A DNA stretch of 35,147 nucleotides. It comes from Spirochaetaceae bacterium. Lineage in GTDB: Bacteria > Spirochaetota > Spirochaetia > DSM-27196 > PWMO01. Shown here piece after piece: positions 4,790-28,688 of this stretch. Position 1 is the first letter of the stretch. The number at the start of each line of letters is the position of its first letter. The translations under genes were made by a program, and so were the position numbers. The stretch lies in contig REDW01000050.1 in assembly GCA_007693325.1 (NCBI GenBank), positions 1 to 35,147 on the forward strand, written 5' to 3'. The notes beneath the pieces are model-generated. The model had not been told where the DNA came from and searched no databases. It worked only from the letters and a program-made list of their open reading frames with translations.

Positions 4790-6154
4790 ATGGCAACATT
4801 GTGGCACAAAGGGTATCGCGTCAATGAGATTGTACAGCGCTTCACGGTCGGCAGCGACTACCTGCTGGACCGCCGGTTGGTGCGCTGCGACTGCGCCGGC
4901 AGTCTGGCGCACGCTAAGATGCTGGCCGCCATCGGGGTTCTGAGTAATGCCGAGCTCGAGCAGATAGCAAGCGGTATCGCCCGGATCGTAGAGATCGATC
5001 TCAAAGACGGGTTTCCAATCTCGGCTGAAGAAGAAGACTGCCACACCGCTATCGAGAACTGGCTTACCGAGCATCACGCAGAATCCGGCATGAAGATCCA
5101 CACCGGACGCTCGCGCAATGACCAGGTGTTGACCGCAGTGCGGCTCTACACGCGTGCCAAGCTGGCGCGAATCAGCGAACGCGGCTGCGATGCAGCGACG
5201 GCGCTGCTGGAGATGGCATCGCGGTACGAGCACACCCCTATGCCGGGGCGCACCCATCTGCATATCGCAATGCCGTCTTCGGTTGGCCTGTGGGCAGCGG
5301 CTTTTGCCGAGGCGTTGATCGACGATCTGCAGCTCCTGCTGAACGCCTACGAGCTGGCAGACCAGTGCCCGCTGGGGGCTGCCGCCAGTTATGGCGTTCC
5401 GTTGCCGCTGGACCGAGAGTACACCGCCGAGTTGCTGGGCTTCTCGCGGGTGCAGAACAACGTACTCTACGTTAACAATTCACGCGGCAGGATCGAGGCG
5501 GTTGCACTCGACGCAGCTGAAGCGCCGGTTGCTACGGTTTCGAAGCTTGCCTGCGATCTGATGCTCTTCTCGCTGCCGGAATTCGGCTACTTCACGCTGC
5601 CGGCCGAGATGTGTACGGGGAGCAGCATTATGCCGCAGAAGAAAAATCCCGATGCACTGGAGCTGACGCGCGCGCGCGGAGCAACGCTGGCGGGTTTGAC
5701 TGGACAGCTCAGGAATGTGATTCGTAACCTGCCATCGGGCTATAACCGTGATTTTCAGGAGACCAAGGAGCCTCTGCTGCGCGGCCTCGATATTGCCGAG
5801 GATTGCCTCGAAATCATGGCGTTGACGGTGCAGGCGCTCGAGGTCAACAGCGAAGCTCTGCACGCAGCGTGTACCCCGCAGCTGTTCGCTACCGACGAGG
5901 CGTATGCGCTGGTGCAGAAGGGAGTCCCGTTCCGCGAGGCGTACCGCCAGGTTGCCTCACAGCTGGATGACGTGGCGGCGGTCGATCCGGTGGCGGCGCT
6001 GAAGCTACGCACCTCAGCGGGGAGCCCCGGTAATCTGCGGTTGCCGCAGGCACGTGCACGCCTCGAGGCCATCCGCAGCGAACTTGGCGAGCGCAACAGT
6101 CACGCCACGGCCGCTATCGAGCGGCTCTTCGGCCAGACGGTGCCCCTGCTGTAG
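4790..6154 (+). CDS. argH: Argininosuccinate lyase
   Basis: A 454-residue member of the fumarase/aspartase superfamily. It splits argininosuccinate into arginine and fumarate in the last step of arginine synthesis. The signature GSSIMPQKKNPD is intact and includes the catalytic Ser of the mobile loop (S278/S279). The HTGRSRNDQV and TMPGRTHLH-type motifs (here PMPGRTHLHIAM) are also present. The N-terminus MATLWHKG aligns with the usual MALWGGRF start, supporting the ATG at 4790 despite the absence of a Shine-Dalgarno. A few linker and C-terminal segments are shorter than in E. coli. Its end lies only 6 nt from the end of the convergent permease gene, and no terminator is visible between them. 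No argG or other arg gene is in the window. Confidence 0.95.
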   Translation: MATLWHKGYRVNEIVQRFTVGSDYLLDRRLVRCDCAGSLAHAKMLAAIGVLSNAELEQIASGIARIVEIDLKDGFPISAEEEDCHTAIENWLTEHHAESGMKIHTGRSRNDQVLTAVRLYTRAKLARISERGCDAATALLEMASRYEHTPMPGRTHLHIAMPSSVGLWAAAFAEALIDDLQLLLNAYELADQCPLGAAASYGVPLPLDREYTAELLGFSRVQNNVLYVNNSRGRIEAVALDAAEAPVATVSKLACDLMLFSLPEFGYFTLPAEMCTGSSIMPQKKNPDALELTRARGATLAGLTGQLRNVIRNLPSGYNRDFQETKEPLLRGLDIAEDCLEIMALTVQALEVNSEALHAACTPQLFATDEAYALVQKGVPFREAYRQVASQLDDVAAVDPVAALKLRTSAGSPGNLRLPQARARLEAIRSELGERNSHATAAIERLFGQTVPLL

Positions 6155-6160
6155 CAGACC

Positions 6161-7063
6161 TCAGAAGTGGGCATCCATGAAGCGGCGGCGCCGTTGTCCC
6201 CGGGCGCGCAGCGCCGAGTAGGTTATCATCGCTACAACCGTAATTGCGTAGGGCAGGCCGAGCAGGACCGTGCCCGGGATTGCCAGTAAGCCCTGCGCTG
6301 CACCGGCCAGGCTCTCGGTGAAGCCGAACAGCAGTGCGGCTATCAGAATACCGATAGGATGACGATAGCCCAGATAGATGGCTACTAGCGCTATCCAGCC
6401 GCGCCCGGCGCTGATATTGGGCAGGTAGACACCCAGCCGCAGTGATATTGCAGCTCCTGCAAGCCCCGCAGCTACTCCCGATATCAGTACCGCGATACGT
6501 CGGTACGCTACGGCGTCTACTCCGGCAATGATCACGCTGTCTTCGCGCGCGCCCACCGCACGCAAGCGCAGCCCGAACGGTGTGCGGTAGAGCGCCACAA
6601 GCGCCAGCGGTACCAGCAGCCACGCCAGGTAGACTGTGGCGCTGTGACCGAAAAGCAGGCTGTCGATGAAGCCCACCCCGCTGGTCACGCCCTCTAACAG
6701 GCGCGGCAGGCGCGGCAGGTCAGGGAAGCGCAGTACACCCTTGGTGCCAAACATCCAGGTAGAGATGAACGGTATGCTACCGGCGGCCAGCAGATTGACG
6801 GCCAGGCCGGTGATGAAGATGTTGGCTCGCAGCCGGATGCTGAAGAAGGTGAACACCGCCGCCAACAACCCTCCGGCGAGCGCACCGGCCAGCATGCCGA
6901 CCACCAGGCTGCCGCTGGCGGCGCCCGCCAGAATACCGGCAAACGCCCCGGCAAGGATGAGCCCTTCCAGCGCGATGTTCAGGACCCCGGCCAGTTCGGC
7001 AAACAGGCCGCCGAGCGCTGCGAGCAGGATTGGCGTCATGATCTCAACCGCATTGAAAATCAT
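6161..7063 (-). CDS. BMP-type ABC importer, second permease
   Basis: A 300-residue inner-membrane permease of the branched-chain/ribose (BPD_transp_2) class, with about eight to ten hydrophobic helices. It reads like the YufQ/NupQ-type permease of nucleoside importers: FNAVEIMTPILLAALGGL at the start, NIALEGLILAGAF, and an EAA-like cytoplasmic stretch near GLRLRAVGARED. The ATG at 7063 overlaps the TGA of the upstream permease (ATGA), and AGGAG lies 9 nt upstream, so translation is coupled. It is the last gene of the transporter operon. It should pair with the 7060-8127 permease and the twin ATPase to form the importer. The substrate cannot be read from sequence; nucleosides or a sugar are likeliest. 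Confidence 0.88.
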   Translation of the reverse strand: MIFNAVEIMTPILLAALGGLFAELAGVLNIALEGLILAGAFAGILAGAASGSLVVGMLAGALAGGLLAAVFTFFSIRLRANIFITGLAVNLLAAGSIPFISTWMFGTKGVLRFPDLPRLPRLLEGVTSGVGFIDSLLFGHSATVYLAWLLVPLALVALYRTPFGLRLRAVGAREDSVIIAGVDAVAYRRIAVLISGVAAGLAGAAISLRLGVYLPNISAGRGWIALVAIYLGYRHPIGILIAALLFGFTESLAGAAQGLLAIPGTVLLGLPYAITVVAMITYSALRARGQRRRRFMDAHF

Positions 7064-8127
7064 GCTGCCGTGCTCCTGCCGCGCGGACGCAGCCACAGGC
7101 GAGGCAGCGCAACCTGCGCCGTGATCATGAAGAAGATCACAGCCTGGATGATGGCGCCCAGCTCAAAGCTGAACTCGGTGTGCAGCATCGCAGCCTTGGC
7201 ACCGGCTTCCATGTAGGCAAAGATCAGCGCCGCAGGAATAATCAGCAGCGGATGGTTGCGCCCGATAAGCGCCACTGCAATTGCGTTCCAACCGAGCCCG
7301 ATGGTAAACCCCTGGATAGCTGCATGGTGCGTGCCGAGCACCGCAAACGCTCCGCTGAGTCCGTGCAGCCCGCCTGATATTGCCATCGGCATGGCGGTGT
7401 AGGCGCCAATGGCAATTCCGCCGTAGCGCGCAAACTCGCGGTTCAGTCCGGTAATCCGCAGTTCGTAGCCGCGTACGGTGTGGTAGAGCAGGAAGTAGGC
7501 AAGCGGTGCCAGTAGAAGTGCAAACAGCAGCGCCAGGTTGAGGTTAGACGGCGGCAGCAGACGCAGCAGGCGGAAATGCTCGGCTATGCGTTCGGTGGTC
7601 AGCAGATTACTCTGCTGGTTGCGCAGCGGCCCGACAATCAGGTAGCTGACCGAAGGAACAATTGCCGCTGATATCAGAAACGAGGTGATCAGTTCATCTG
7701 TGCCCCAGAGATATTTAAACAATCCGCAGACACCGGCCAGCAGCATTCCTACCGCTACCGCTGCCACAAGGGCCAGCACTATCCCGATCAGCGCCGGCGC
7801 CTGCGGCAGCGCCAGACAGACTACCGCAGCTACCAGTCCCGCGATATAGATCTGTCCGTCTCCCCCGAGATTGAACACCCCGGCGCGAAAGGCGGCACTT
7901 ACCCCCAGGCCGGCTATCAGGAGCAAACCCGCGCCGTCGAGCATATTGCCAAAGTAGTAGCGGTTGGAGAATGGTCCCAGAAAGAAGGCGCGCAGCGCAC
8001 GCGCCGGATTGGGGCTGCCGAAAACCAGCAGTAGCACTGTTACCAGGAGTGCGGCCAGAAGCGCTACTACCGTCTCGGGGGTTTGAGCGCGCGGCGGGGC
8101 GCGCGAGGCTGCCGGTTTCTCAGCCAT
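7060..8127 (-). CDS. BMP-type ABC importer, first permease
   Basis: A 355-residue membrane permease of the same BPD_transp_2 superfamily as its downstream neighbour, similar in style to YufP/NupP. It has a charged cytoplasmic N-terminus (about 1-20), then repeated long hydrophobic helices. The family stretch FRAGVFNLGGDGQIYIAGL is clear, as is the cytoplasmic coupling region near ELRITGLNREFARYGGI. I chose the ATG at 8127: it has GGAGAG 7 nt upstream and overlaps the end of the ATPase gene by 8 nt. The stop overlaps the next permease start. Heterodimeric permeases fit this transporter class. Confidence 0.88.
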   Translation of the reverse strand: MAEKPAASRAPPRAQTPETVVALLAALLVTVLLLVFGSPNPARALRAFFLGPFSNRYYFGNMLDGAGLLLIAGLGVSAAFRAGVFNLGGDGQIYIAGLVAAVVCLALPQAPALIGIVLALVAAVAVGMLLAGVCGLFKYLWGTDELITSFLISAAIVPSVSYLIVGPLRNQQSNLLTTERIAEHFRLLRLLPPSNLNLALLFALLLAPLAYFLLYHTVRGYELRITGLNREFARYGGIAIGAYTAMPMAISGGLHGLSGAFAVLGTHHAAIQGFTIGLGWNAIAVALIGRNHPLLIIPAALIFAYMEAGAKAAMLHTEFSFELGAIIQAVIFFMITAQVALPRLWLRPRGRSTAA

Positions 8128-9742
8128 TGGTTCGCTCTCCTGCGGCGGTGATATTGTGTTCCTGGAACCCGAGCATAAACTCGCCAATCCGTTCGCGCGT
8201 GCGGTCCTCGGCCTCCAGAATACCGGCAATCCGGCCGCGGTACATGACCGCGATGCGGTCGGCCAGACTCAGCACTTCATCAATATCGGCCGAAATCAGG
8301 ACAACCAGCGCCCCCTCGTCGCGCAGTGCGCGCATTTCCGAGTACATCAGGTCACGCGAGCGCAAGTCGAGCCCCCAGCTGGGTTCGGAGAACACCACTA
8401 CCTTGCGCAGGCCGGACAGCTCGCGCGATAGAATCACCTTCTGGATGTTACCCCCCGAGAGCCGTTTCATCGGCTGGTGCAGCACGCCGGTTATGCCGTA
8501 GCGGCGCTTGAGTTCCTCGGTAAACGCGGTGATATCTTTGCGCCGTAGAACGCCGCCGGTCTGCAGCTCCTTGCGCTGCAGCAGAATGAGATTCTCGGCT
8601 ACCGTAGAATCCATGCTGGCGCCGCGGAGAATGCGGTCGGTTGGAATGTAGGAGATGCCGATGTGGCGGAAATGCCGCGGAGAATAGCGTTTGACCGGTT
8701 TGCCGTCCAGCAGCACTACGCCACGGTCGGGCGCAATCGAGCCCGAGAGCACGTCTTCCAGAAACTCAAGTCCGTTTTCGCGGATTCCGGTTACGCCGAG
8801 CACCTCTCCGGCCTGCGCGGTAATGTTGATATTGTCGAGCACCGCAAGAGCGCCAACGTAGACCGAGACCTTATGCAGCTCCAGCGTAGAGTCTCGGCCG
8901 GTAGGCAAAGCTCGGGGGGGACGCGAATGAAGCCCCGTAGCCCCGGCGGCGTGCCCGTCTCCGGCCAGTGCCTGGACCAGTCTGCGGTCAAAATCGCCGA
9001 TCTGGCAATCCTCGCCGATCATCAGTTCGGCTATGCGGGGCGCAGTGGTTTCAGCAACTGCGGTTGTGGCCACAACCGCGCCGTTGCGCATGACTGTGAC
9101 CCGGTCAGCTACCTGCATGACCTCGCCCAGCTTATGCGTGATCAGTATGATCGAAGTGCCCTGGGCCTGCAGGCTGCGCAGTAGCGCAAACATCAGCGCC
9201 ACCTCGGGCTCGGTACACGGAGCAGTGGGCTCGTCCAGAATCAACAGACGTGGTCCGCGCAGAAGGGCGCCCAGCAACGCCACGAAATGTATCTGACTGG
9301 CGGCAAGTCGGTTCATCCGTGCGTGGGGATCAACCGAGATTCCGTAGCGAGATGCACACGCTGTTACCATGTCTGCCGCGGCTCTGCGATCCAGCAGTCC
9401 GGCCCGGCCGGTGCGCTCCATGCCAAGCACGATATTCTCCCAGACGCGAAAGCCGGGAACGTAGGGTGGGTGCTGGTGCACCATAACGATGCCGTGCGCC
9501 AGAGCATCCGCGGGGGAGCGAATCTGGACCGGTTTGCCGTCCACCTCAATGCGTCCGGCGCCGGCGGAAATGTAACCTGACAACACGTGCATCAGGGTTG
9601 ACTTTCCGGCACCGTTTTCTCCTACCAGTGCGTGTACGCTGCCGCAAGCAATATCCAGGTCAACCGCGTCATTGGCGGTGACGTTGTTCTCCGCGAAGTA
9701 GGTGGTGATACCACGTAGTTGAAGCCAGGGGGTTTGTGTCAT
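8120..9742 (-). CDS. BMP-type ABC importer, twin-domain ATPase
   Basis: A 540-residue ATPase with two nucleotide-binding domains in one chain, as in RbsA/MglA/YufO. Domain 1 has Walker A GENGAGKS (41-48), Walker B LLILDEPTA (D170, E171) and the switch His (H203). Its ABC signature, normally LSxGQ, reads LAASQ (147-151). Domain 2 lacks Walker A Gly-Lys-Ser/Thr (GIRENGLEF, 319-327). It also lacks the Walker B Asp (FSEPSWGLD, S452) and the switch His, but keeps the signature LSGGN (428-432). One composite site (domain 1 Walker A plus domain 2 signature) is therefore canonical and the other is fully degenerate. It starts 8 nt after the binding-protein gene and overlaps the next permease. It energises import of an unidentified solute. 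Confidence 0.9.
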   Translation of the reverse strand: MTQTPWLQLRGITTYFAENNVTANDAVDLDIACGSVHALVGENGAGKSTLMHVLSGYISAGAGRIEVDGKPVQIRSPADALAHGIVMVHQHPPYVPGFRVWENIVLGMERTGRAGLLDRRAAADMVTACASRYGISVDPHARMNRLAASQIHFVALLGALLRGPRLLILDEPTAPCTEPEVALMFALLRSLQAQGTSIILITHKLGEVMQVADRVTVMRNGAVVATTAVAETTAPRIAELMIGEDCQIGDFDRRLVQALAGDGHAAGATGLHSRPPRALPTGRDSTLELHKVSVYVGALAVLDNINITAQAGEVLGVTGIRENGLEFLEDVLSGSIAPDRGVVLLDGKPVKRYSPRHFRHIGISYIPTDRILRGASMDSTVAENLILLQRKELQTGGVLRRKDITAFTEELKRRYGITGVLHQPMKRLSGGNIQKVILSRELSGLRKVVVFSEPSWGLDLRSRDLMYSEMRALRDEGALVVLISADIDEVLSLADRIAVMYRGRIAGILEAEDRTRERIGEFMLGFQEHNITAAGERTNG

Positions 9743-9750
9743 TCCCTGTG

Positions 9751-10827
9751 TCAGAATTGAGTCGGCATCTCCAGGCGGAGATCGCCGTCACGCAATCGCG
9801 TTATCATGGCCTCGAGCTCGGACCTGACCTGCTGCGGCACGTGGCGTTCGAAGAGTCGGTGCCCGGTGTCAAATCCTACGAAGCCGTCGCCAACGCCCAG
9901 GACCTCGCCGGTGCCAAACGCCAGCTCACCGTCGATAGCGTCCAGCGTGCGCAGATAGGCAGCCTCATCCAGCTTGACTTCGGTACTGCCGATCACTATG
10001 CCCGGCGCTTCATCGTAGCCGGGCGAGTCGTACCACAGAACGTAGGCGCCCTTGGTGCGCGCGGCCGAGATAACGCCCTGGTTTCCGCCGCCGGAAATTG
10101 TCAGGATGACGTCTGCTCCGTTATCCAGCATGCTGTTGGCCAGTTCGGTTGCTGCTGCAGCATCGTACCAGTTGCCCAGAACGCGAAAGTCGAGTACGGC
10201 GGCTGGATCGACCGATTGCAGACCCAGCTCGAATGCGGGGCGGATGACGCGGTTCATAATCGGGTACTCCTGGCCCGCTAACAGGCCGGCGCGCAGCCCC
10301 GGCTTGGCGTGCTCCATAGAGCTGGTGGAGACCAACCCGGCAAAGTAGCCCGAGAGAAATGCCTGTTCACGCTGATTGAACAGCACGGTATACAGCGACG
10401 GATTGCCCGCCAGGTAGCCGTCAAGAACCAGGAAGCGCTGATCGGGAAAGCTCTGTGAGACTTCTTCGGCAATCTCGGGCATCGACGGATTAGAGGTGAC
10501 GATGAGGTCGTAGTCCTGTGTTGCCGCCAGTGAGGTCATGCTTTGCGGCCATTCGGCCTGATTGAAACCTCCTTCGATAACGCGGACGCCGGTTCCCGGG
10601 CGTTCTTCGGCCGCGCGGCGTACGCCGGCAACAAGCATCTCGTAGGTTGGGCTGCCCTCGACAACGCCGGGTACAAATACTGCAACAGAAAACTCGGCTT
10701 CGGTAGCCGTGTCGCGCGTGCCTAGTGCCGCCGGCTGAGCGGCCGGCAGGATTAGCAGCAGTACGGCACAGAGCAGACCAGACGGTTTAAACCCACGGTC
10801 CCGCTGAGCGTTAGTGCGATATTTCAT
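9751..10827 (-). CDS. BMP-family ABC substrate-binding protein
   Basis: A 358-residue exported binding protein of the BMP/Med (BmpA, TmpC, PnrA) family. Its relatives bind purine nucleosides in spirochaetes, and other members bind sugars or autoinducer-like compounds. The pattern fits: FSVAVFVPGVVEGSPTYEML at the start, DLIVTSNPSM, FLVLDGY, FLSGYFAGL and the ISGGGNQGV loop. The N-terminus has a basic stretch and hydrophobic core (about 10-32). I see no lipobox Cys at the cleavage site, unlike most BMP proteins, so it may be soluble in the periplasm. The ATG at 10827 has GGAGGT about 10 nt upstream. It leads the transporter operon and is divergent from an FGGY kinase. Confidence 0.88.
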   Translation of the reverse strand: MKYRTNAQRDRGFKPSGLLCAVLLLILPAAQPAALGTRDTATEAEFSVAVFVPGVVEGSPTYEMLVAGVRRAAEERPGTGVRVIEGGFNQAEWPQSMTSLAATQDYDLIVTSNPSMPEIAEEVSQSFPDQRFLVLDGYLAGNPSLYTVLFNQREQAFLSGYFAGLVSTSSMEHAKPGLRAGLLAGQEYPIMNRVIRPAFELGLQSVDPAAVLDFRVLGNWYDAAAATELANSMLDNGADVILTISGGGNQGVISAARTKGAYVLWYDSPGYDEAPGIVIGSTEVKLDEAAYLRTLDAIDGELAFGTGEVLGVGDGFVGFDTGHRLFERHVPQQVRSELEAMITRLRDGDLRLEMPTQF

Positions 10828-10866
10828 CGGTAAACCTACCTCCCTTGCTTTACATAACGTGTTCAT

Positions 10867-10895
10867 CGGTATATTACTCAAATCCGCGCATGATT
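10867..10895 (-). promoter_or_regulatory. Candidate promoter of the BMP transporter operon
   Basis: On the minus strand, TTTCAA, a 17-nt spacer and TAATAT lie about 40 nt upstream of the binding-protein start. The -35 is a poor match, so this is a weak call. It faces away from the kinase promoter in the same 132-nt gap. Confidence 0.3.
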
Positions 10896-10906
10896 GAAAG
10901 GCGTTG

Positions 10907-10939
10907 TTGACCGCGATTTCCTGACCATGATAGGGTCAG
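10907..10939 (+). promoter_or_regulatory. Candidate promoter and operator of the FGGY kinase
   Basis: TTGACC (10907-10912), an 18-nt spacer and TAGGGT (10931-10936) form a promoter-like pair. A perfect 6-bp inverted repeat, CTGACC and GGTCAG with a 7-nt centre (10921-10939), covers the -10 box, as a repressor operator would. It sits between the divergent kinase and transporter genes. No regulator gene is adjacent. Confidence 0.4.
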
Positions 10940-10959
10940 CTGTTCACACTGGAGCATCG

Positions 10960-12372
10960 ATGCAGGCACACACGCAGATTTCTTCTTCCGGACGCACGCT
11001 GTTGTGCGTTGACTTCGGCACTTCGGCAATCAAGGCCGGCTGCATCAGCTACAACGGAGTCCTGCAAGACTTCGAGTACGAACGCCTGCCGCAGGCCAAA
11101 GACGCAGACGGCTTCAGCGCAGAGGTCTGGACTACCCGTTTCTCGCGCCTGCTCGGACGCATGAGACTGCTCGACAGCGTAAGCGCGGTGATCATCAGCG
11201 GCAACGGTCCCACCATTGTTGCCGTTGACAACAATGGGCAGGCGCTCGATCCGGTCATGCTCTGGTTTGACGGGCATGATCGGCGTATCGACGGACAGCC
11301 GTCGTTCTTTCTGCCCAAGGTCGCCTGGTTTGCCGGACAGCACCGCGATGCCTTCGCGCGTACACGCTGGTTTCTCTCCTGTCCGGAGTACATCAGCTAC
11401 TGTCTCAGCGGCGTGCCAACCACAATCACGCCGTCTGATGAGTTCGTTCGTTACATCTGGTCGGGCGACGGAATCGAGGCTTACGGTCTCGACCAGCGGA
11501 CCTTTCCGCGCTATGTCCGCATCGGTGAAACCATCGGCCGCGTGACCGAAGCCGCAGCACGCGTCTTTGCCATTCCAACAGGCGTGCCGGTTATCGCCGG
11601 AGGGTCGGATTTCCTGATGAGCCTTATCGGTACTGCTACGGTCAAGCCCGGCAGAACGTGCGATCGCGCCGGCACCTCGGAAGGGATAAACTACTGCTCG
11701 GCCGGCGCGGTCAGCGATGAGCGTTTGCGTTGTCTGCCGCACGCTATCGACGGCATGTACAACGTCGCCGGGATCCTTTCATCGACCGGCCGTATCTTCG
11801 AGTGGTTCCGCGATATTTCCGGGCAGCACGAGGTCAGCTACGCTGAAATGCTGCGTTCAATAACCGAGCTGCCGCAGGACCGCCATATTCCGTGGTTCTT
11901 TCCGACAATCCGTGACGGTGCTGCGTGGGAGTTCAGTCGGGGTATGTTCATCGAGCTCGGCGCACAGCACGGTACCGCCGAGATGGGCAAAGCGGTGGTG
12001 GAATCGATTGGATTTGCGGTGCGTGCGTCGGTCGAGATCCTGGAGCAGGCCGGCTGTCCGATCAGTGAATTACGCGTGTCCGGCGGGCAAGCCAAGAACC
12101 AGCAGTGGAATCAGATGAAAGCAGACATCATCGGTAAGCCGGTGCTGGTGGGGCAGGTGGCAGACGCCGAGATCATGGGGAACGCGTGCGCCGGGCTGGT
12201 GGGAATGGGGCACTTTGCCGGCCTGGTGGAAGCCGCTGAGGCACTCTACACGGTTTCAGCCAGGTTCGAGCCGGACGGCCCGAGTCACCAGCGCTACAGC
12301 GAGGACTACGCGCGCTACTGTGCGGCCTACGAGACGTTCCGGCACGCGCTGCGCGACTGTTTCGCCCTTTGA
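10960..12372 (+). CDS. FGGY-family carbohydrate kinase
   Basis: A 470-residue two-domain sugar kinase of the FGGY superfamily (xylulokinase, gluconokinase, LsrK relatives), which phosphorylates a sugar or polyol with ATP in the cytosol. The N-terminal phosphate-1 motif is VDFGTSAIKAG. The probable catalytic Asp is D217 in AGGSDFLMSLIGT, and the ATP-side motif RVSGGQAKNQQWNQMKADI is near the C-terminus. I chose the ATG at 10960, which has GGAG 5 nt upstream; longer readings have no site. It is divergent from a BMP-type importer, and the shared gap carries a dyad, so the importer may supply its substrate. The exact sugar cannot be read from sequence. Confidence 0.85.
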   Translation: MQAHTQISSSGRTLLCVDFGTSAIKAGCISYNGVLQDFEYERLPQAKDADGFSAEVWTTRFSRLLGRMRLLDSVSAVIISGNGPTIVAVDNNGQALDPVMLWFDGHDRRIDGQPSFFLPKVAWFAGQHRDAFARTRWFLSCPEYISYCLSGVPTTITPSDEFVRYIWSGDGIEAYGLDQRTFPRYVRIGETIGRVTEAAARVFAIPTGVPVIAGGSDFLMSLIGTATVKPGRTCDRAGTSEGINYCSAGAVSDERLRCLPHAIDGMYNVAGILSSTGRIFEWFRDISGQHEVSYAEMLRSITELPQDRHIPWFFPTIRDGAAWEFSRGMFIELGAQHGTAEMGKAVVESIGFAVRASVEILEQAGCPISELRVSGGQAKNQQWNQMKADIIGKPVLVGQVADAEIMGNACAGLVGMGHFAGLVEAAEALYTVSARFEPDGPSHQRYSEDYARYCAAYETFRHALRDCFAL

Positions 12373-12417: not shown

Positions 12418-12831
12418 TTGTTTTTCTGGTTTGGCTTTCCTTTTGTGTTCTTCTTCCCGATATTTCTGGCGTTTCTGGCGCTGCGCGCCGGACTGGCGCT
12501 GTTTCGTCCGTCAAGCCGCCTGCGTGACGGCTGTTCCCCCGCACATATCGACGAGCACGAACTGCTGGCGCAACTGCAGAGCGGCGGCTACACCTACCGC
12601 CATATTCAGGGCAGACAGGCGCAGTTGTTCAAGCTGGCGCAGCGTTTAGGCGGCAGGCTGACCGTGTCGGACATTGTGATCGAAACCGGGCTTGGTGTTG
12701 AAGAAGCTGAACGGTTTATTGAAGCGATGGTCGATAACAGCCACGTCCGCATGGACATAGATGACAACGGGATGGTAGTCTACGATTTCCCGGAAATTAT
12801 CGCTCGCCGTGAGCGCGAGACCGATTCATAG
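12418..12831 (+). CDS. Small membrane-anchored protein with winged-helix-like tail
   Basis: A 137-residue protein that I do not recognise as a named family. It begins with a very hydrophobic, Phe-rich segment (about 1-27), likely one membrane anchor. It ends in a soluble region (about 55-130) whose helix-turn-helix-strand pattern (LAQRLGGRLTVSDIVIETGL then VEEAERFIEAMVDNSHVRM and DDNGMVVYDF) looks like a winged helix. I prefer the TTG start at 12418, because AAGGGG lies 8 nt upstream. A GTG at 12409 is in frame but overlaps that AAGGGG. Its 3' end overlaps the convergent glnE gene by 35 nt. Function unknown; the winged-helix reading is only a pattern judgement. Confidence 0.65.
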   Translation: MFFWFGFPFVFFFPIFLAFLALRAGLALFRPSSRLRDGCSPAHIDEHELLAQLQSGGYTYRHIQGRQAQLFKLAQRLGGRLTVSDIVIETGLGVEEAERFIEAMVDNSHVRMDIDDNGMVVYDFPEIIARRERETDS

Positions 12832-15800
12832 GCCGGTCTCCGGTAGCCTCTGCATCAAGCGAAGCGTCAATCAGGTAGCGCAAGAAGGCGTCGCGTACCA
12901 GGGAGCGCACCGCGTCCAGCTGTTGGTAGAAATCCCCACTACTGCCGCTTGAGAGCTGAACCCGGCGAGCCAGCGCGCTGCGCAGCTCGGGGCTTTGCGG
13001 CAGACGATGTACCTGGCGGTCTTCCAATATCTGCAGGAAATGTTCGATACGCCGCAGCAGGATGTAGCCGTGCTGCAGCTGTTCGGCGACGTCAGCCGGC
13101 AAGAGGCTCCGGTGGGCCAGCGCGGTCAGGCCCTCCAGCGTATTCCCGGTCAGCAGCTCAGGATAGCGGTGGCAGTGAAGCAGCTGGAGCCCCTGTACCA
13201 GAAACTCGATATCGCGGATCCCGCCGACACCGTTCTTGATGTCCGTATCGGCGTGTGACTGTGCGATGGCGTTGTCACGCAGCCTGGCTATCGAGTCTGC
13301 GATGGCGCCGCGCCGCCGTTGGGTTGTCAGAACCGGCAGCGCTCGTTCCAGAAAGCGCTCGCCGAGATCCAGGTTGCCGGCAATCGGGCGCAGTTTCAAC
13401 AGCGCCTGGTGCTCCCACAGCGAGGCGTGCTCACGGTAATAGCGCTCGAGCGCCGGTAGACGCTGAACCAGGGCGCCGGATGATCCAAAAGGACGCAGGC
13501 GCAGGTCAACGCGGTAGAGGTAGCCCTGTTCGGTGTGATTGGACAGCGCCGCACGCAGCTGAACCATGACGCTGTCAAATATGCGCTGGTCATCGGCACG
13601 GTCCAGACGTTCGTCGGGCTCGAACAGCGCCAGCAGATCGATATCCGAACTGTAGTTCAGTTCGCGCCCGCCAAGCTTACCGAAGGCCAGAATACAGAAG
13701 CGAGCGGCGGCTGCGCGGTTTGGGTCCTGGCGCCAGATATCGTCCAGGGCTGCCTGAGTCAGCGCCGCGGCAAGATTGGAAAGCTCTTCGGTTATTTCCA
13801 CCAGCGGCGCGTGCAGGCAGATATCTCGTGTTCCAATGCGCAAAATCTCGCGGCGGCGGAAGCGACGCAGCGCGTTAAGCCAGTCGCGACGCGTCTGCTC
13901 CGTTGAGGCAATGACGGCGAGGTCTGCGGCAATTGCAGCTCGTGAACGCACGCTACGCACTACGTCGTGCTCGGTTACCCAGTCCAGGAAGTCTGGATTC
14001 TGGATCAGCGTATCTGAAAGGAACTGGCTTCCAGCAAAGATGGCGATAAGGATGCGCAGCCGCTGCGGTTGCAGTTGCAGGCATCGGATGTGGTCCAGCG
14101 GATCCTCAATTGCCGCCATGAAGCGGTCCCAGTTGTTGAGCGCCATATCGGGATCGGGACAGGAGCGCACCACGGTACGCGCCAGGATCGCCAGCTCGGC
14201 AAACAGAAACTGGCGCTCGCCGCTACCGGCCATGCGGCGCCAGGCGTTGTAGCTGCGTTCAATATTCTGAAAGCCGCCTCGCTTCAGGATTGCGTGCTTG
14301 CGCTGGTTATCGATTTGCCCGCTCAGGATCAGGTCCGCTATGTTGCCCTCTACATCCGTTGGCACCGCATCACGGCCGAGCTCGCGTTCGACAAAGGCTC
14401 GTATTTCGGCCGACCGCGCCTCGAACTCCATGTTGAGCTGCTCTGCCGGCGGCAGTGAGCCGCGGGTGCGATAGCCCATACGACGAGCGAGATGCAGATA
14501 CTCGGGAGAATCGAGCTGGGGCAGAAACAGGTCCTGCGCGTTGCCGCGCAGCATGCGCAGGCCGTTGATCAGGTTGCGAAAGAAACGGTATGCGCCCACC
14601 AGGCGCTCGGCGTAGTCCTGGTGCAGCTTACCGGCCTCCACCAGCGCTTCGAGGGCCAGATGGATTCTTGGTGTTCGCAGCGCACGGTTTGTGCGGCCGT
14701 GGATCACCTGCAGAATCTGAACGCAGTATTCGAGATCAACCAGACCGCCGGGACTGAACTTGGCGTTCAGGCGTCCCGGCTCGCTTTTGTCCTGCAGCTG
14801 CAGCGCGCGTAGACGCTTCAGTTCCTGCAGATCGATCGAGCCTCCGGTGTAGATCAACTGATTGCGGATGCTTTCAATATGCCGACCCAGCTCCAAATCA
14901 CCACCGATGCGCCGCATGCGCACCAGCGCCAGCTTCTCAAGCGCTGCTGCCTCACGGCTGTAATACCTGGTGAAAGATGACAAGCTGACGGCTACCGGTC
15001 CGGACTTGCCGTGTGGGCGCAGACGCAGGTCGATGTGGAAAATCCCCTCGCGCTTGGCGTCTATCAGGGACACCGCATCCTGAAACAGGCGATCGAAGAA
15101 CTCACGGTTGGAAATCGGCTCAGGACCATCGGTCTGGCCGTCATCCGAGTAGAGAAACATCAGCTCTATGTCGGAGGCGTAGCCCAGCGCCTCGCCGCCG
15201 AGTTTGCCCAGCCCCATGATGGCCCAGCTTGCCGGCAGTCCGGCAACCGCACGCGGAGTTCCGTAGCGCTCGACCGCATCCTGGCAGGCAATCTCTACCG
15301 CTGCGCAGACGATGGCTTCTGCAAGTGCGGTGAGCCGCGAGCTGAGAAAGAAGAAATCCAACTCGGGACGCCGGATATGGTCCAGATCGATCAGGTAGTT
15401 CTGGTTGTCCTTGAAATCGTTCAGCAGCGCGCGTTTCTGTGCGCGATCGGCGCCGCCGCTGAGCTTGCGCTGCAATGCTGTGGACATCTGCTGCGGGTCG
15501 AGGCTTAAGAGCTCACTTGCACCGGTTTGGTCAAGCATTGGAAGTACGCTTTCGTGCTGCAGCCGCAGGAAATCCTCCCACAGGTAATCGCTGGCGCCGA
15601 GCAGACGGGAAAGATCCTGCAGCACCTTGGGGCTCGAGAGCAGCGAGCTGATGCGTCCGCGCTGTGAGAGTTGGATGAAGTCCTGGATGAGCGACTCGAA
15701 ACGCTGCAGCGCACTGTACGGATCGGGGGCGTTGGGAAGGAAGTAGGTGAACTGCTTGGTGAACGCCACGGAGAGCCGCAGCTGATTGATGGCCGACTCA

Positions 15801-16600
15801 TCGGTGACCGGTTTCCCCGCTGAATCCACAAAATCAAACTGGTCTTCAACGCGTCTGCCACGCGTGCGGATCTCGACGTGCTCGATAGATAGCCCGTGCA
15901 GCGCGAGCGCGTTACTGAGGGCGTAGAGAAAAAACAGGGTGTCTTCCGAGAGAATCTTCATTCGCGTGAACTCGGGCTGTGAGGTGTCAAATTCCACGTC
16001 CACCGGAAACAGAATCCGCTCTGCCTGCAGATCCATGTCGGACAGCGCCCGCACTACCAGTTCAGTCAATCGCTTCTTGGCCTGTTCCAGGCTTTCGACG
16101 CTATTGGTGTGCAGTAGCTGCATGAAGCTGCCGAGATGTTCGCGGAAGCGCTCTGCCCACTCCTGGCGCGGCGGCGCAGCGGTCCCGGTGAACGTATCCA
16201 CGATAATGCGTCGCCGGTTGTCTGAAGTCAGTTCGCTGAAACGGCGGCGATGACGCTGCAGATAGCGCGCACGAGACTCCTGGTTGGGAAATGCGCGGCG
16301 CAGCGCTTTCTCATCTATCTCCTGCTTCGGTTCCATGCTGCGCGAGGTGTAGATATCTCCCGAGACTATGTTGAAACCGGTTGCCGAGAGCAGCCCGGTG
16401 ATAATCGAAAACTCCGCCGGATAGTCGTAAGCCACTATCGTGACGCTGGTGAGCTCAGGATCGGACTCTGCCGCGCGCACCTCGATCGCAAACGGGGTCT
16501 GGTCACTGAGTTGCTGCTGCATCTGCCGATGCGCGTTCACCTGAGCGTCACTGCATTCGTTGAAATAGCGCGCCGGCATGCGTTCGAGCCATTGGTCCAT
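12797..16600 (-). CDS. glnE: Glutamine synthetase adenylyltransferase (GlnE) with N-terminal ACT-like domains
   Basis: A 1267-residue protein; E. coli GlnE has about 946. GlnE adds and removes AMP on glutamine synthetase to match its activity to nitrogen supply. Two nucleotidyltransferase centres are visible. The N-terminal (adenylyl-removing) one is GLGKLGG with SDIE (463-479), where the usual SDID has become SDIE at D477/E479. The C-terminal (adenylylating) one is AFGKLGG with an intact SDID (972-988). The extra N-terminus carries two ACT-like units. The first is about 51-88, with its last strand displaced to about 131-139 (IIVDTFTG). The second, about 209-263, reads like the GlnD C-terminus (SIEHVEIRTRGRRVEDQFDF). 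An in-frame TAG 15 nt upstream fixes the start at or after 16600. It follows glnK after 176 nt and overlaps a convergent gene by 35 nt. Confidence 0.9.
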   Translation of the reverse strand: MDQWLERMPARYFNECSDAQVNAHRQMQQQLSDQTPFAIEVRAAESDPELTSVTIVAYDYPAEFSIITGLLSATGFNIVSGDIYTSRSMEPKQEIDEKALRRAFPNQESRARYLQRHRRRFSELTSDNRRRIIVDTFTGTAAPPRQEWAERFREHLGSFMQLLHTNSVESLEQAKKRLTELVVRALSDMDLQAERILFPVDVEFDTSQPEFTRMKILSEDTLFFLYALSNALALHGLSIEHVEIRTRGRRVEDQFDFVDSAGKPVTDESAINQLRLSVAFTKQFTYFLPNAPDPYSALQRFESLIQDFIQLSQRGRISSLLSSPKVLQDLSRLLGASDYLWEDFLRLQHESVLPMLDQTGASELLSLDPQQMSTALQRKLSGGADRAQKRALLNDFKDNQNYLIDLDHIRRPELDFFFLSSRLTALAEAIVCAAVEIACQDAVERYGTPRAVAGLPASWAIMGLGKLGGEALGYASDIELMFLYSDDGQTDGPEPISNREFFDRLFQDAVSLIDAKREGIFHIDLRLRPHGKSGPVAVSLSSFTRYYSREAAALEKLALVRMRRIGGDLELGRHIESIRNQLIYTGGSIDLQELKRLRALQLQDKSEPGRLNAKFSPGGLVDLEYCVQILQVIHGRTNRALRTPRIHLALEALVEAGKLHQDYAERLVGAYRFFRNLINGLRMLRGNAQDLFLPQLDSPEYLHLARRMGYRTRGSLPPAEQLNMEFEARSAEIRAFVERELGRDAVPTDVEGNIADLILSGQIDNQRKHAILKRGGFQNIERSYNAWRRMAGSGERQFLFAELAILARTVVRSCPDPDMALNNWDRFMAAIEDPLDHIRCLQLQPQRLRILIAIFAGSQFLSDTLIQNPDFLDWVTEHDVVRSVRSRAAIAADLAVIASTEQTRRDWLNALRRFRRREILRIGTRDICLHAPLVEITEELSNLAAALTQAALDDIWRQDPNRAAAARFCILAFGKLGGRELNYSSDIDLLALFEPDERLDRADDQRIFDSVMVQLRAALSNHTEQGYLYRVDLRLRPFGSSGALVQRLPALERYYREHASLWEHQALLKLRPIAGNLDLGERFLERALPVLTTQRRRGAIADSIARLRDNAIAQSHADTDIKNGVGGIRDIEFLVQGLQLLHCHRYPELLTGNTLEGLTALAHRSLLPADVAEQLQHGYILLRRIEHFLQILEDRQVHRLPQSPELRSALARRVQLSSGSSGDFYQQLDAVRSLVRDAFLRYLIDASLDAEATGDRPMNRSRAHGER

Positions 16601-16673: not shown

Positions 16674-16735
16674 GGCGGCCGACTACCTGCAACAGCGGCG
16701 CGGCGGACCGTCGGCCGCCGCGCCGCATCTGTTGC
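16674..16735 (-). other. Alternative hairpins between glnK and glnE
   Basis: GGCGCGGCGG (16697-16706) pairs perfectly with CCGCCGCGCC (16715-16724) around an 8-nt loop. The stem is extended by a 7-bp outer helix, GCAACAG (16689-16695) with CTGTTGC (16729-16735). A second segment, GGCGGCCGAC (16674-16683), is exactly complementary to GTCGGCCGCC (16710-16719), which lies in the loop and stem of the first hairpin, so the two folds exclude each other. No U-run follows, so it is not a standard terminator. It could partly separate amtB-glnK expression from glnE, or mark an RNA processing site. Confidence 0.55.
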
Positions 16736-16776: not shown

Positions 16777-17118
16777 TCAGCCGATGGCGTCTTTGCCTTT
16801 CTCACCGCTGCGGATTCGAATGCACTCTTCCAGCGGAACGATGAAGATCTTGCCATCCCCGATTTCTCCGCTGCGAGCGCCGCGGATCAGCGCGTCAACG
16901 GTTGTCTGGACAAATTCGTCGTTGACCGCTATCTCGATCCGCGTTTTCTTCAACAGGTTGACCTCGATGTCCACACCGCGGTAGGACTCGGTGTAGCCTT
17001 TCTGCTGGCCGCAGCCGAGCGAATTGGTGACCGACATCCTGTATACTTCGGCCTTGTACAGCTCTTCTTTGACATCGTTCAGCTTATGCGGCTGGATGTA
17101 GGCGATTATCAGTTTCAT
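16777..17118 (-). CDS. glnK: PII nitrogen regulatory protein (GlnK/GlnB family)
   Basis: A 113-residue trimeric PII signal protein that binds ATP/ADP and 2-oxoglutarate and usually gates AmtB. It aligns with E. coli GlnB through the T-loop without gaps. Nucleotide and 2-oxoglutarate residues are kept (G37, Q39, K40, K58, GDGK at 87-90, R101 and R103). T-loop position 51, the Tyr uridylylated by GlnD in proteobacteria, is Ile, and position 49, the Ser phosphorylated in cyanobacteria, is Val. Y46 and R47 are present. The C-terminus ends GEKGKDAIG. It starts 17 nt after amtB with GGGAGG upstream, so the two are co-transcribed. I use glnK because of the amtB linkage; glnB would be equally defensible. 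Confidence 0.93.
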
Positions 17119-17135: not shown

Positions 17136-18479
17136 TTACATGTTGGTGAAAATCTGGAACCCAGGATAGGATTCCATTGCGTGTTCGCCGATATCGAGAC
17201 CGATGAGCTCCTCGGTTTCACTGACGCGCAGTTTATTGACGGCTTTGAGAATACCAAAGAGAACCAGAGCGGTCACCACAACCCACACAAATACCGCCAG
17301 GACGCCGATAAGCTGAACCCCAAACTGAGCCATGCCACCGCCGTAGAACAGGCCTACAACGTCGGGATCGTTGACGCCGGTGGCAAACAGCCCTACCGCC
17401 AACGTACCCCAGGCACCGCAGACTCCGTGAACCGATATGGCACCGACAGGGTCGTCAATGTGCAGCACTTTGTCAAAGAACTCTACCGAAGCGACTACCA
17501 GAATACCGGCAAGCAAGCCGATGACGATCGCGCCAAACGGGCTTATGACCCACGTGCCGGCGGTGATGCCAACCAGGCCCGCCAGGGCGCCGTTGAGCGA
17601 GAAACTGGGGTCCGGCTGCCCGAAGGCGATCCAGGAGGTCACCATCGCCGCTATTGCTCCGGCGGACGCCCCCAACGTCGTAGTGACAAACACGTGCGCA
17701 ATGTCCAGATCGGTTCCCGAGAGGGTGCTGCCGCCGTTAAAGCCGTACCAGCCGAACCACAGGATGAACACGCCCAGCGCCGCCAGCGGCATGTTGTGGC
17801 CCGGAATCGCCTTGGGACGGATCTTTCCGTCAATTTTGACGTACTTTCCTTTTCTGGCTCCGAGCATGACGGCGCCGATCATTGCCGCCCACGCGCCTAC
17901 CGAGTGAACAACGGTGCTGCCGGCGAAGTCGTGAAAGCCCATCTCCGCCAGCCAGCCGTTATCGGCCCAGATCCAGTGCCCGGAAACAGGATAGACCAGC
18001 GCAGTGATCACCACGCTGTAGAACAGGTAACCGCTGAACTTGGTGCGCTCGGCCATAGCTCCCGATACAATCGTGGCCGCGGTTGCAGCAAACACCACCT
18101 GGAACATCCAGTCGCGGTAGAGCACATAATCGGCACCGCCGAGAAAGAACTGATCGGTTCCCAGAAATCCGCCGGCGCTGGAACCGTACATCAGGGCCCA
18201 CCCGACTGCCCAGTACGCCAGCGCGCCAACCGAGAAGTCCATCAGGTTCTTCATGATGATGTTGCCGGCGTTCTTGGCTCTTGTGAGACCGGTCTCGACC
18301 ATGGCGAACCCCGCCTGCATGAAAAACACCAGTGCCGCGGCGAGTACCAGCCATATCATATCAAACGAGTCCTGGAACAGTTCCAGAAGCTCCGCTGTGG
18401 CTGCATCCTGTGCGTATAGAGCCGAGCTTGCGAATAGCATCACCGCCGCAAAGCACAGGAGAAGGATCTTTTTGTTCAT
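17136..18479 (-). CDS. amtB: Ammonium transporter AmtB
   Basis: A 447-residue Amt/Mep/Rh channel that takes up ammonium across the inner membrane. It starts with a cleavable signal peptide (1 to about 23, LYAQ-DA), as E. coli AmtB does, followed by the expected set of 11 hydrophobic helices. The twin pore His are H192 (STVVHSVG) and H351 ([10 protein letters not shown]). The [15 protein letters not shown] stretch is typical of the family. The ATG at 18479 has GGAGGG 8 nt upstream. A sigma-54 promoter lies about 45-60 nt upstream. glnK follows, forming the usual amtB-glnK pair (gene order reversed relative to glnK-amtB of E. coli), with glnE beyond. Confidence 0.96.
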
Positions 18480-18523: not shown

Positions 18524-18539
18524 AGCAAGAGCTATGCCA
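18524..18539 (-). promoter_or_regulatory. Sigma-54 (-24/-12) promoter of amtB-glnK
   Basis: On the minus strand, TGGCAT, 5 nt, then TTGCT. The GG and GC doublets are separated by the required 10 bp. The predicted transcript start is near 18513, giving a 34-nt leader with GGAGGG before amtB. I found no TGT-N10-ACA NifA site or NtrC-type site in the rest of the 219-nt gap (18480-18698). Confidence 0.75.
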
Positions 18540-18698: not shown

Positions 18699-20261
18699 TT
18701 ATTTGCTGTTCCGGAACGCTCTGGGCTCAATCGCGTGCTTGTTGACCCGCAGGCCCATGATCCGCTCACTGATTTTCAACAGGCGCGCCGCCTTGGCCAT
18801 GTTGCCCTTGGTGGATTTGAGCGCGTCCATCAGCAGCTCGCGCTCCAGGTTGTCCAGCGACTCCTGAAGCGAGCCGGTGACCACCGTGTCGGTCGACTCG
18901 GCGCTCTGCAGGCTGGGCGGCAGGTGGTGACTGTGAATAACCTCGTCCACACTCAACAGCACAGCGCGTTCGATACAGTTCTCCAGCTCGCGCACGTTAC
19001 CCGGCCAGTGGTAGTTCATCAACAGATCGATTGCCGGTGTGGATATGCGGCGGATCGGGCTGTGATTCTGCTCGCTGTATTTCTCGACGAAGTGGTCCGT
19101 CAGCAGCAGAATATCGCTTTTGCGATCGCGCAGCGGCGGAATGTGAATCGGAAAGACGTTGAGCCGATAGTAGAGGTCTTCGCGGAAGTCGTTGCTCTCC
19201 AGTAGCTGCTCGAGATTGCGGTTGGTGGCGGTGATGATGCGTACGTTGGCGCGAATGGTCTCGTTGCCGCCGACGCGTTCGAACTCCTTCTCCTGCAAAA
19301 CACGCAACATCTTGACCTGCAGAATTGGCGAAAGGTCACCGATTTCGTCGAGGAAGATGGTGCCGCCGTTGGCCAGCTCAAAGCGCCCCTTGCGCAGGCT
19401 GATGGCTCCGGTGAATGCGCCTTTCTCGTGGCCGAAAAGTTCGCTCTCTATGACTGTCTCGGGCAGCGCGGCGCAGTTTACCTTAATAAACGGCCGCGAT
19501 GCGCGCGGGCTGTTATAGTGAATGGCCTGTGCCACCAGTTCTTTGCCGGTGCCGCTTTCGCCGCGGATCAGCACGGTTGCTTCGCTGCGCGACACCTGCG
19601 CAATCATGTCGAAGACCGCCTGCATGGATTTGGAGTTGCCGATGATGTTGGACGGCTTGTACCTTGCACGCAATTCCTGATGCAGGCGTGTGTTCTCCTC
19701 TTGAAGACGGCGCTTCTCTTCCATGATGTTCTGCCGCACCTTGACCGCCTGTGCGATCAGCGAGCTTACAACCGACAGAACGCGCGCGTCCTCCTCCAGC
19801 TCCTGCTCAGCGCCAATTGGACGATCGACACTGAAGGCGCCGATGGTCTCGTTACCGATCTTGATCGGAACACATATGAACGAGATCTCCTTCTGCTTCT
19901 GCCCCTTGCGGGCCCCGGTCTTGTTGAGAAAGTCCGGGTCGTCGGCGATGCGCGGGATGATCTTCAGCTGTCCGCCCTGTACAACCTTGCCGGTGATTCC
20001 TTCGCCGAGTACGTAGCGTCCGCGCTCGCGTTGGCTGTTGGAGAGGCCGTAGGCAGCTTCAATGAATATCTCGCCGGTCTGGCGATTCAACAGGGTTATC
20101 GCGCCGCGATACATGCCGAGATGATCGGTGACCGCCTTCAGCACCGGATGGATTACCAGCTTGAGGTCCATGCTCTGATCGAGAATCTGGCTGATTTCAA
20201 ACAGCAGCGATAGCTCTTCGAACTTGCCTCGATAGCTGTTGAGTGTTGGCTCCTGTGACAC
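18699..20261 (-). CDS. NifA-like sigma-54-dependent transcriptional activator
   Basis: A 520-residue enhancer-binding protein. A GAF sensor domain (about 20-175) and a short coiled coil (about 178-200) lead into a sigma-54 AAA+ domain with Walker A GESGTGKE (234-241), the sigma-54 contact loop GAFTGA (281-286) and Walker B FLDEIG (303-308). A C-terminal Fis-type helix-turn-helix (about 485-514) ends in [21 protein letters not shown], a NifA-like pattern. The GTG start at 20261 has AGGAGG 9 nt upstream. It sits directly upstream of, and in line with, amtB, which has a sigma-54 promoter, so control of amtB-glnK is likely. No nif structural genes are in the window, so a role in nitrogen fixation is not shown. 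Confidence 0.9.
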
Positions 20262-27318: not shown

Positions 27319-27329
27319 GGTTCTCTCCA

Positions 27330-28688
27330 TCAGCGTCCCGTCAGAAATAGAATATCACTCAAGAACGCAAAAACAATCAGCGACAGCACAATTGCGGTTC
27401 CAATCATCTGGTAGCGATAAACTACCTTGGGATGCAAGGGGCGTCGTGACAGGCCCTCAACCGTGTAGAGCAGAATCTGTCCGCCATCGAGCACCGGAAT
27501 CGGCAGCAGGTTCATGAAGAACAACGCGATACTCACCAGGCTGAGGAAGTTGAAGAAGGCGCGCACGCCGTCGCCAACTCCGGTGGTTAAACCGGCTGTA
27601 GCGACCTCTCCCACAAAGTAGGTAATGCGAATCGGACCGGCTACCGCCTGGGTAAGATCGACGCCCTGGAACAGTAGTCCGATGCTGTGAATAGTCAGTC
27701 CCAGGGTGCGAAATGTCTCGCGCGTACCACGGTCCACCGCCTGCAGTGGTGTCAAGGACGGAGACGGCATTTCGACTGCCTCAAAAGCAATGCCGACGTA
27801 GAGAGAGCCGTCCTCGCGGGAGCCGGGTACCAGTTCGGTCTCGACTGTGGTTTCGTTGCGCTCCACGGTGATCGGAACCGGCCGCCCGGTAGCCTGCATG
27901 ATCTGCAGTAACTGCATGCTGTTGGCGGTAGCGCTGCCGCCGGCGCGCACGATGCGATCTCCCGGTTGTAATCCGGCGATATCGGCCGGCGAGCCATCAC
28001 TGACTGAGGCCACCACCGGGTCAATCCACGGATAGATACCGATCAGCCCCGCTCCGGTGTCGCGATCCAGCTGCGGGGTTATCGGTTGTTCAAACTGTGT
28101 GTCGTTGCGCGCAATGGTAAACGTCAACTCGCGGCCGGCGGATTGAGCCACTCGTTGCTGTATGTCGCGGAAACTGGCTGTCTCGTGGCCGTCAATCGCT
28201 ACGATACGGTCGCCGGTCTGCAACCCGGCTTCAGCTGCCGGCATCTGGCTCGACTGCTCCGAGTAGTCTGCCGCCAGCACAATCCGGTTCTCGAAGGTCT
28301 GCACTGAAAAGCCGATGCCCCAGATCACCGAGAGGACCAGAATAGCGAATAGCAGATTTACCAGCGGTCCGGCAACCGCGACCAGGATACGCTGCCATGG
28401 GCGTGCGCTGAAGAACGCTCCCGCTTCGTGCGGAATGCGGTCTGTTCCCTGGTCCCACGCGCGTTGCAACAGAACTTCGCCTTTCATCTTGCAGAAACCG
28501 CCGAACGGGAAGATCGAAATCTGGTACTCGGTGCCTTTGTAGTGGAAGCCGGCGATCTTGCGCCCCCAGCCAATGGAGAAGGTCTCCACATCGATACCAA
28601 CCGCTTTGGCCGCGAGCAGATGTCCAGCTTCGTGCACAAAGACTACAATGCCGAGGCCGAGAAGGCCAATGAGAATGTTTATTATCAT
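27330..28688 (-). CDS. rseP: Site-2 membrane metalloprotease RseP
   Basis: A 452-residue intramembrane zinc protease of the S2P family. HEAGH at 19-23 in the first helix and the third zinc ligand region LLPIPVLDGG (D401) near the C-terminus are intact. Two PDZ domains lie between (about 115-190 and 200-285), with GLQTGDRIVAIDG and GLQPGDRIVRAGG as their clear loops. In E. coli it cuts the anti-sigma factor RseA after DegS; in other bacteria it also clears signal peptides. The ATG at 28688 overlaps the cdsA stop by 4 nt (ATGA). The uppS-cdsA-rseP order is widespread in bacteria and supports the assignment. Confidence 0.95.
   Translation of the reverse strand: MIINILIGLLGLGIVVFVHEAGHLLAAKAVGIDVETFSIGWGRKIAGFHYKGTEYQISIFPFGGFCKMKGEVLLQRAWDQGTDRIPHEAGAFFSARPWQRILVAVAGPLVNLLFAILVLSVIWGIGFSVQTFENRIVLAADYSEQSSQMPAAEAGLQTGDRIVAIDGHETASFRDIQQRVAQSAGRELTFTIARNDTQFEQPITPQLDRDTGAGLIGIYPWIDPVVASVSDGSPADIAGLQPGDRIVRAGGSATANSMQLLQIMQATGRPVPITVERNETTVETELVPGSREDGSLYVGIAFEAVEMPSPSLTPLQAVDRGTRETFRTLGLTIHSIGLLFQGVDLTQAVAGPIRITYFVGEVATAGLTTGVGDGVRAFFNFLSLVSIALFFMNLLPIPVLDGGQILLYTVEGLSRRPLHPKVVYRYQMIGTAIVLSLIVFAFLSDILFLTGR

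Follow-up and report, generated by a model that had tools for sequence, protein, structure and literature searches.

A GlnE-family protein carrying the ACT-domain tail of GlnD at its N-terminus in spirochaetes and other bacteria

The window, a stretch of 35,147 nucleotides from a Spirochaetaceae bacterium, encodes a GlnE that bears at its N-terminus the complete post-HD tail of GlnD, i.e. the linker, ACT1 and ACT2 (hereafter ACT-GlnE; Table 1). This architecture is real and conserved inside a known family, and it is apparently undescribed: the open-licence literature, the only literature that we searched, yielded no description of a GlnE with ACT domains. Textbooks illustrate cascaded covalent control with the relay of GlnD, PII and GlnE, and ACT-GlnE may read the nitrogen state of the cell directly instead of through this relay. 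We consider it fairly probable that an amino-acid signal, most likely that of glutamine, enters GlnE directly through the ACT pair and thus bypasses GlnD and PII-UMP.

Table 1. Features of the ACT-GlnE locus (window positions)
Feature	Position	Strand	Basis
ACT-ACT-GlnE, 1267 aa	12797..16600	-	ATG-start ORF; Pfam and GlnD-profile matches; sole GlnE of the genome
Linker, residues 1-48, RYF...H motif	16457..16600	-	GlnD profiles begin at residue 2; collinear with GlnD before ACT1
ACT1, residues 51-140, variable insertion ~86-131	16181..16450	-	AlphaFold; GlnD alignment
ACT2, residues 200-275, motif SEDTLFFLY, Gly position occupied by Phe	15776..16003	-	Pfam ACT; AlphaFold
H1, first catalytic half, residues 320-805, nucleotidyltransferase (ASDIE) and helical domain	14186..15643	-	PF03710 at 14873-15619
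H2, second catalytic half, residues 806-1267, nucleotidyltransferase (SSDID) and helical domain	12800..14185	-	PF03710 at 13346-14050
PII (glnK), Ile51	16777..17118	-	PF00543, E 4e-25
amt ammonium transporter	17136..18479	-	PF00909, E 1.2e-125; TIGR00836; start taken as ATG 18479, from sequence
Sigma-54-like promoter TGGCATAGCTCTTGCT	18524..18539	-	1 mismatch to TGGCACN5TTGCW; ~45 bases upstream of amt
NifA/NtrC-type sigma-54 activator with GAF domain	18699..20261	-	TIGR01817 (nifA), 563.6 bits, above cut-off

Pfam recognized both PF03710 (GlnE; E 1.5e-102) and GlnD_UR_UTase (PF08335) twice in the ORF, together with an ACT match at residues 227-266 that lies under the Pfam cut-off (E 1.2e-4). 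The protein scored 467.4 bits against the NCBIfam equivalog PRK11072, below the cut-off of 487, so NCBI-style naming likely misses ACT-GlnE; one relative (L099) clears this cut-off. Like E. coli GlnE (b3053; PF03710, PRK11072), ACT-GlnE is built from two halves, in each of which a nucleotidyltransferase is joined to a helical domain, and is accompanied by the tyrosine target motif in glutamine synthetase (GS), with glnA nearby in several genomes. It differs from the E. coli protein by some 320 extra N-terminal residues containing two ACT domains, by an SDxE motif in H1 in place of SDxD, by the uncertain order of its halves and by belonging to a separate clade. The original prediction had estimated the N-terminal surplus at about 320 residues, in agreement with the ~270-350 residues that separate ACT-GlnE from the standard GlnEs of the same phylum (920-1003 aa). 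A misplaced start or a frameshift fusing two genes is a negligible possibility: we found nothing in its favour, and it is contradicted by the nearest named relative (L085, a Spirochaetales MAG protein, 97% identical), which has the same length of 1267 aa and the same alignment, as well as by conservation in dozens of further relatives. A viral-contig scan gave no match.

The N-terminus is related to GlnD over the whole post-HD tail. Indeed, two NCBIfam GlnD profiles match it: PRK05092 (E 3.4e-20; best stretch, residues 2-116 against profile positions 693-804) and TIGR01693 (E 3.1e-17; best stretch, residues 2-274 against positions 621-841 of 850), and residues 1-283 by themselves still match both (E 9e-16 and 1.5e-12, respectively). 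Aligned with 28 GlnD tails, the N-terminus runs collinear with them throughout the pre-ACT linker (RYF...H), ACT1 and ACT2. Y12 and H24 of the linker are nearly invariant. The TIGR01693 match is confined to the tail, the nucleotidyltransferase core of the GlnD UTase and the HD domain being missing from ACT-GlnE; the two proteins also differ by a long insertion in ACT1 and by the replacement of the ACT2 Gly. An AlphaFold model of residues 1-350, built with 64 homologues (pLDDT 85, pTM 0.85), folds residues 51-140 into the beta-alpha-beta-beta arrangement of ACT1 (strands 51-58, 77-85 and 132-140, helix 63-73) and residues 212-258 into a second beta-alpha-beta-beta unit, ACT2. The original prediction had placed ACT-like regions at 51-88, with a displaced strand near 131-139, and at 209-263, which the model bears out closely; the strand appeared displaced because ACT1 carries a low-pLDDT insertion (~86-131) ahead of it. 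The proposal that a GlnD-type sensor module is fused to the effector thus holds, the ACT pair being of the GlnD-tail type by profile, alignment and fold.

With Foldseek, the ACT-like domains of GL3 and maize R gave TMt values of 0.69-0.73 but E values of 0.36-0.6, and ACT2 plus linker returned only spurious matches in a PDB profile search. The best fold match to the N-terminus was the large glutamate dehydrogenase of M. smegmatis (7jsr), a weak one (E 3e-4, TMq ~0.2); this too is an enzyme of nitrogen metabolism, its catalytic part being unrelated.

A Gly in the beta1-alpha1 turn marks ACT ligand sites. It is replaced in the window protein by Ala62 (ACT1) and Phe223 (ACT2), and among 64 ACT-GlnEs it is retained in 22 for ACT1 and in 4 for ACT2, the position being otherwise mostly occupied by Ala or Phe. 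Ala is also found at the ACT2 position in 5 of the 28 GlnDs. The loop reads DTPxFLY in ACT-GlnE vs DxPGLLY in GlnD, and D59, G69, G81, D220, F224, L225 and D253 are near-invariant in 64 homologues from many phyla. Judged from these alignments, the ligand site of ACT-GlnE is conserved but altered. Since the Gly is retained so rarely, we can only infer that the ACT pair binds glutamine, our best guess for the ligand.

Two other readings of the ACT pair have to be weighed here. ACT domains of different enzymes bind different amino acids, and the changed loop could mean a changed specificity; nevertheless, the whole tail is related to that of GlnD, the glutamine sensor, and the target enzyme, GS, makes glutamine, and we regard a ligand other than glutamine as quite improbable. 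The GlnD ACT domains have been reported as its likely glutamine sensor (PMC3173338), and a single glutamine-binding site has been reported for GlnD (PMC4285133). The plant proteins ACR11 and ACR12 likewise combine two GlnD-like ACT domains with a link to glutamine metabolism, in their case to GS2/GOGAT (PMC3173338), but they are stand-alone chloroplast proteins without a GlnE fusion and have kept the ligand Gly. Alternatively, the ACT pair could bind no small ligand and act in dimerisation or in docking, for instance of PII or GS, with the catalytic halves sensing glutamine as in E. coli GlnE. The degenerate ligand Gly and the adjacent PII gene in the window genome fit such a role, as does the regulation of the E. 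coli ATase, devoid of ACT domains, by glutamine, PII, PII-UMP and alpha-ketoglutarate (Jiang et al. 2007, as cited in PMC5448240); glutamine control of GlnE is therefore not new in itself. A mere docking role is nonetheless unlikely: the residues flanking the ligand Gly hardly vary across 64 sequences drawn from many phyla, some GlnDs share the Ala at the ACT2 position, and one genome (G035) retains ACT-GlnE and GS with neither PII nor GlnD detected; this assembly consists of one 2.7-Mb contig with a completeness score of just 75%.

The gene set of the window genome (G000; 3.47 Mb, a draft in 150 contigs, 97.5% complete) is consistent with direct sensing by ACT-GlnE. A search for PF08335 returned the ACT-GlnE ORF as its sole match; there is no second GlnD_UR_UTase protein and therefore no GlnD, and the combination of a GlnD with a second standard GlnE was not found. 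Tyr51 of PII is the target of GlnD (PMC4285133), and the window glnK has Ile at this position. The single GS retains the adenylylation tyrosine (Tyr397 motif, DKDIYDLPPQE), as do the GSs of GlnE-containing genomes, with DK(N/D)(I/L)YDL, the motif having been read in the majority of these genomes; in G040, which has GlnD and no GlnE, the GS has DLFELS. ACT-GlnE is predicted both to adenylylate and to deadenylylate this GS.

We also surveyed 393 Spirochaetota genomes, 30 of which contain a GlnE above cut-off: 15 long (frames of 1229-1338 aa), 12 standard (one as a partial frame only) and 3 odd or fragmentary. A full GlnD was absent from all 15 spirochaetes with a long GlnE, including the single-contig genomes G130, G203, G006 and G049. 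The search was able to detect GlnD, since 15 other genomes of the sample gave matches, two of them split across contigs. A full GlnD thus occurs in 0/15 long-GlnE vs 7/12 short-GlnE spirochaetes (Fisher p = 0.0009, a guide only since the genomes are related). Among the PIIs detected in the 15 long-GlnE spirochaetes, Tyr51 survives only in G203 and in a single one of the three of G071, having been lost from all others (the NifI-type PIIs of G006 being left out of this count), and is kept in all GlnD-containing genomes checked, at one PII per genome. A GlnD or a second GlnE hidden in an assembly gap, with the ACT pair as an extra layer on a standard cascade, would be compatible with the draft state of the window genome and has a precedent in Deltaproteobacteria (see below); given the 15 spirochaetes without a full GlnD, four of them single-contig, and the lack of Tyr51 in the clear PII of the window genome, we hold this to be very improbable. 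Note that five spirochaetes with a short GlnE (G052, G059, G084, G109 and G114) gave no GlnD match either; G052 and G059 retain Tyr51, possibly because PII is modified in some other way or because their GlnD has diverged.

The fusion extends well beyond spirochaetes. A scan of named genomes gave 233 relatives, of which the 80 kept carry the labels Spirochaetes, Deltaproteobacteria, FCPU426, Firestonebacteria, Goldiibacteriota, Kiritimatiellia, Lentisphaerae, Chitinivibrionales, Phycisphaeraceae and Planctomycetaceae; most relatives are MAGs, so an isolated label could reflect a binning error. Ahead of ACT2, nearly every relative has ~200 residues. ACT-GlnE would also give a way into nitrogen control in numerous uncultured phyla. 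Within the NaphS2 class, the long form of GlnE (1157-1311 aa) was counted in ~20 genomes and the standard form in 6. In thirteen Deltaproteobacteria at least one full GlnD accompanies the long GlnE, and Tyr51 is present in PII in 5/5 checked. The fusion therefore does not simply take the place of GlnD; instead, its presence probably makes GlnD and Tyr51 dispensable. The shortened cascade put forward in the original prediction hence fits the window genome, with its single GlnE, its PII devoid of Tyr51 and its GS tyrosine, but is not general. Genomes that carry the sensor on the effector enzyme, with no GlnD and an unmodifiable PII, and Deltaproteobacteria that keep the whole cascade offer a natural comparison of what each layer contributes. 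In a tree of the ACT part, 35/35 fused proteins form one clade apart from 28 GlnDs (support 100/100), and the catalytic part likewise forms one clade apart from standard GlnE; a single fusion event is therefore the simplest explanation, as these trees suggest.

The original prediction described complete removing (AR) and adenylylating (AT) halves, in that order; two GlnE halves are indeed present, but their order is doubtful, the second being the more AR-like. Both have their carboxylates (ASDIE and IDLRLRP in H1, SSDID and VDLRLRP in H2), with the H1 active-site motif (residues 475-479, window 15164-15178) being SDxE, not SDxD, in 28/28 long GlnEs compared. For H2, the canonical AR profile outscores the AT profile in 79/80 proteins, and in 19/19 under three training sets, whereas H1 has diverged and is ambiguous between AR and AT. 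Half-by-half trees separate {H1, AT} from {H2, AR} (support 96/92, 93 and 97.9); we judged the order from these, as the tree of the whole catalytic part aligns the halves in collinear register and may suffer if they are swapped. AU tests, however, did not reject the canonical AR-then-AT order (p 0.24 and 0.36), voting over 12 signature columns produced no deciding majority, Foldseek matched ACT plus H1 equally to E. coli AT (3k7d, E 5e-19) and AR (1v4a, E 1e-18), and the NCBIfam placements of the halves differ from homologue to homologue. On this evidence H2 appears AR-like, H1 is probably adenylylating and a permuted order, AT then AR, is plausible. In a quick tree, the actinobacterial AT halves L290 and L291 (Tsukamurella and Nonomuraea) cluster with their own AR halves, not with other AT halves.

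Other arrangements also exist. G035 encodes a 1586-aa GlnE (L084, G035:C1:1404000-1420000, ORF 5298-10058, minus strand) in which an AR-like half is followed by ACT-ACT and an H1-type half (tree support 100), and two planctomycetes have ACT-ACT with one GlnE half (L153:5383-7677 and L162:5410-8145), PF03710 occurring once per genome. We tentatively entertain the idea that these proteins make up a permuted GlnE family of modular build, the GlnD tail being joined directly to the adenylylating half: the window protein and most relatives would read ACT-ACT-AT-AR, the G035 protein AR-ACT-ACT-AT, and the two planctomycete proteins would have ACT-ACT with one half only. Amino acids would then control GS by direct sensing; if this doubtful but possible scheme were true, GS would be controlled in some genomes without any PII input.

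On the minus strand of the window, the NifA/NtrC-type activator is followed by amt, glnK and glnE. The sigma-54-like site upstream of amt is the only one-mismatch match to TGGCACN5TTGCW in the window; at two mismatches the pattern is not enriched (17 found vs 20.7 expected). Relatives L086, L089, L160, L156 and L076 have an equivalent site, located in the interval from activator to amt or immediately ahead of amt; in L156 it lies downstream of the activator. In NaphS2 such a site precedes glnA-glnE, and the fused GlnE adjoins glnA there and in G378, G158, G131, G071, G130 and G246. Under the direct-sensing mechanism that we favour, nitrogen limitation would raise amt-glnK-glnE through sigma-54 and the adjacent activator. 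Once ammonium returned and glutamine rose, the amino acid, most likely glutamine, would bind the ACT pair and tilt GlnE towards adenylylation of GS at the conserved tyrosine; when glutamine fell, deadenylylation would dominate. Unmodified PII would still convey the 2-oxoglutarate/ATP/ADP signal by direct contact with GlnE, while the glutamine signal would arrive at GlnE without GlnD or PII-UMP.

Between glnK and glnE lies a perfect 12-bp GC-rich hairpin (gcggcgcggcgg-8-ccgccgcgccgc; 16695-16726, minus strand) with no T run after it, which may lower glnE expression or separate it. Genes for a Bmp-family lipoprotein and an FGGY kinase (window 9751-12372) adjoin amt-glnK-glnE and have apparent counterparts in L160 (7554-10883), which suggests a conserved neighbourhood. 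Elsewhere in the window, a 698-aa WD40-type beta-propeller protein (25234-27330, minus strand) abuts a run of M50 peptidase, cdsA, uppS, frr, tsf and rpsB genes.
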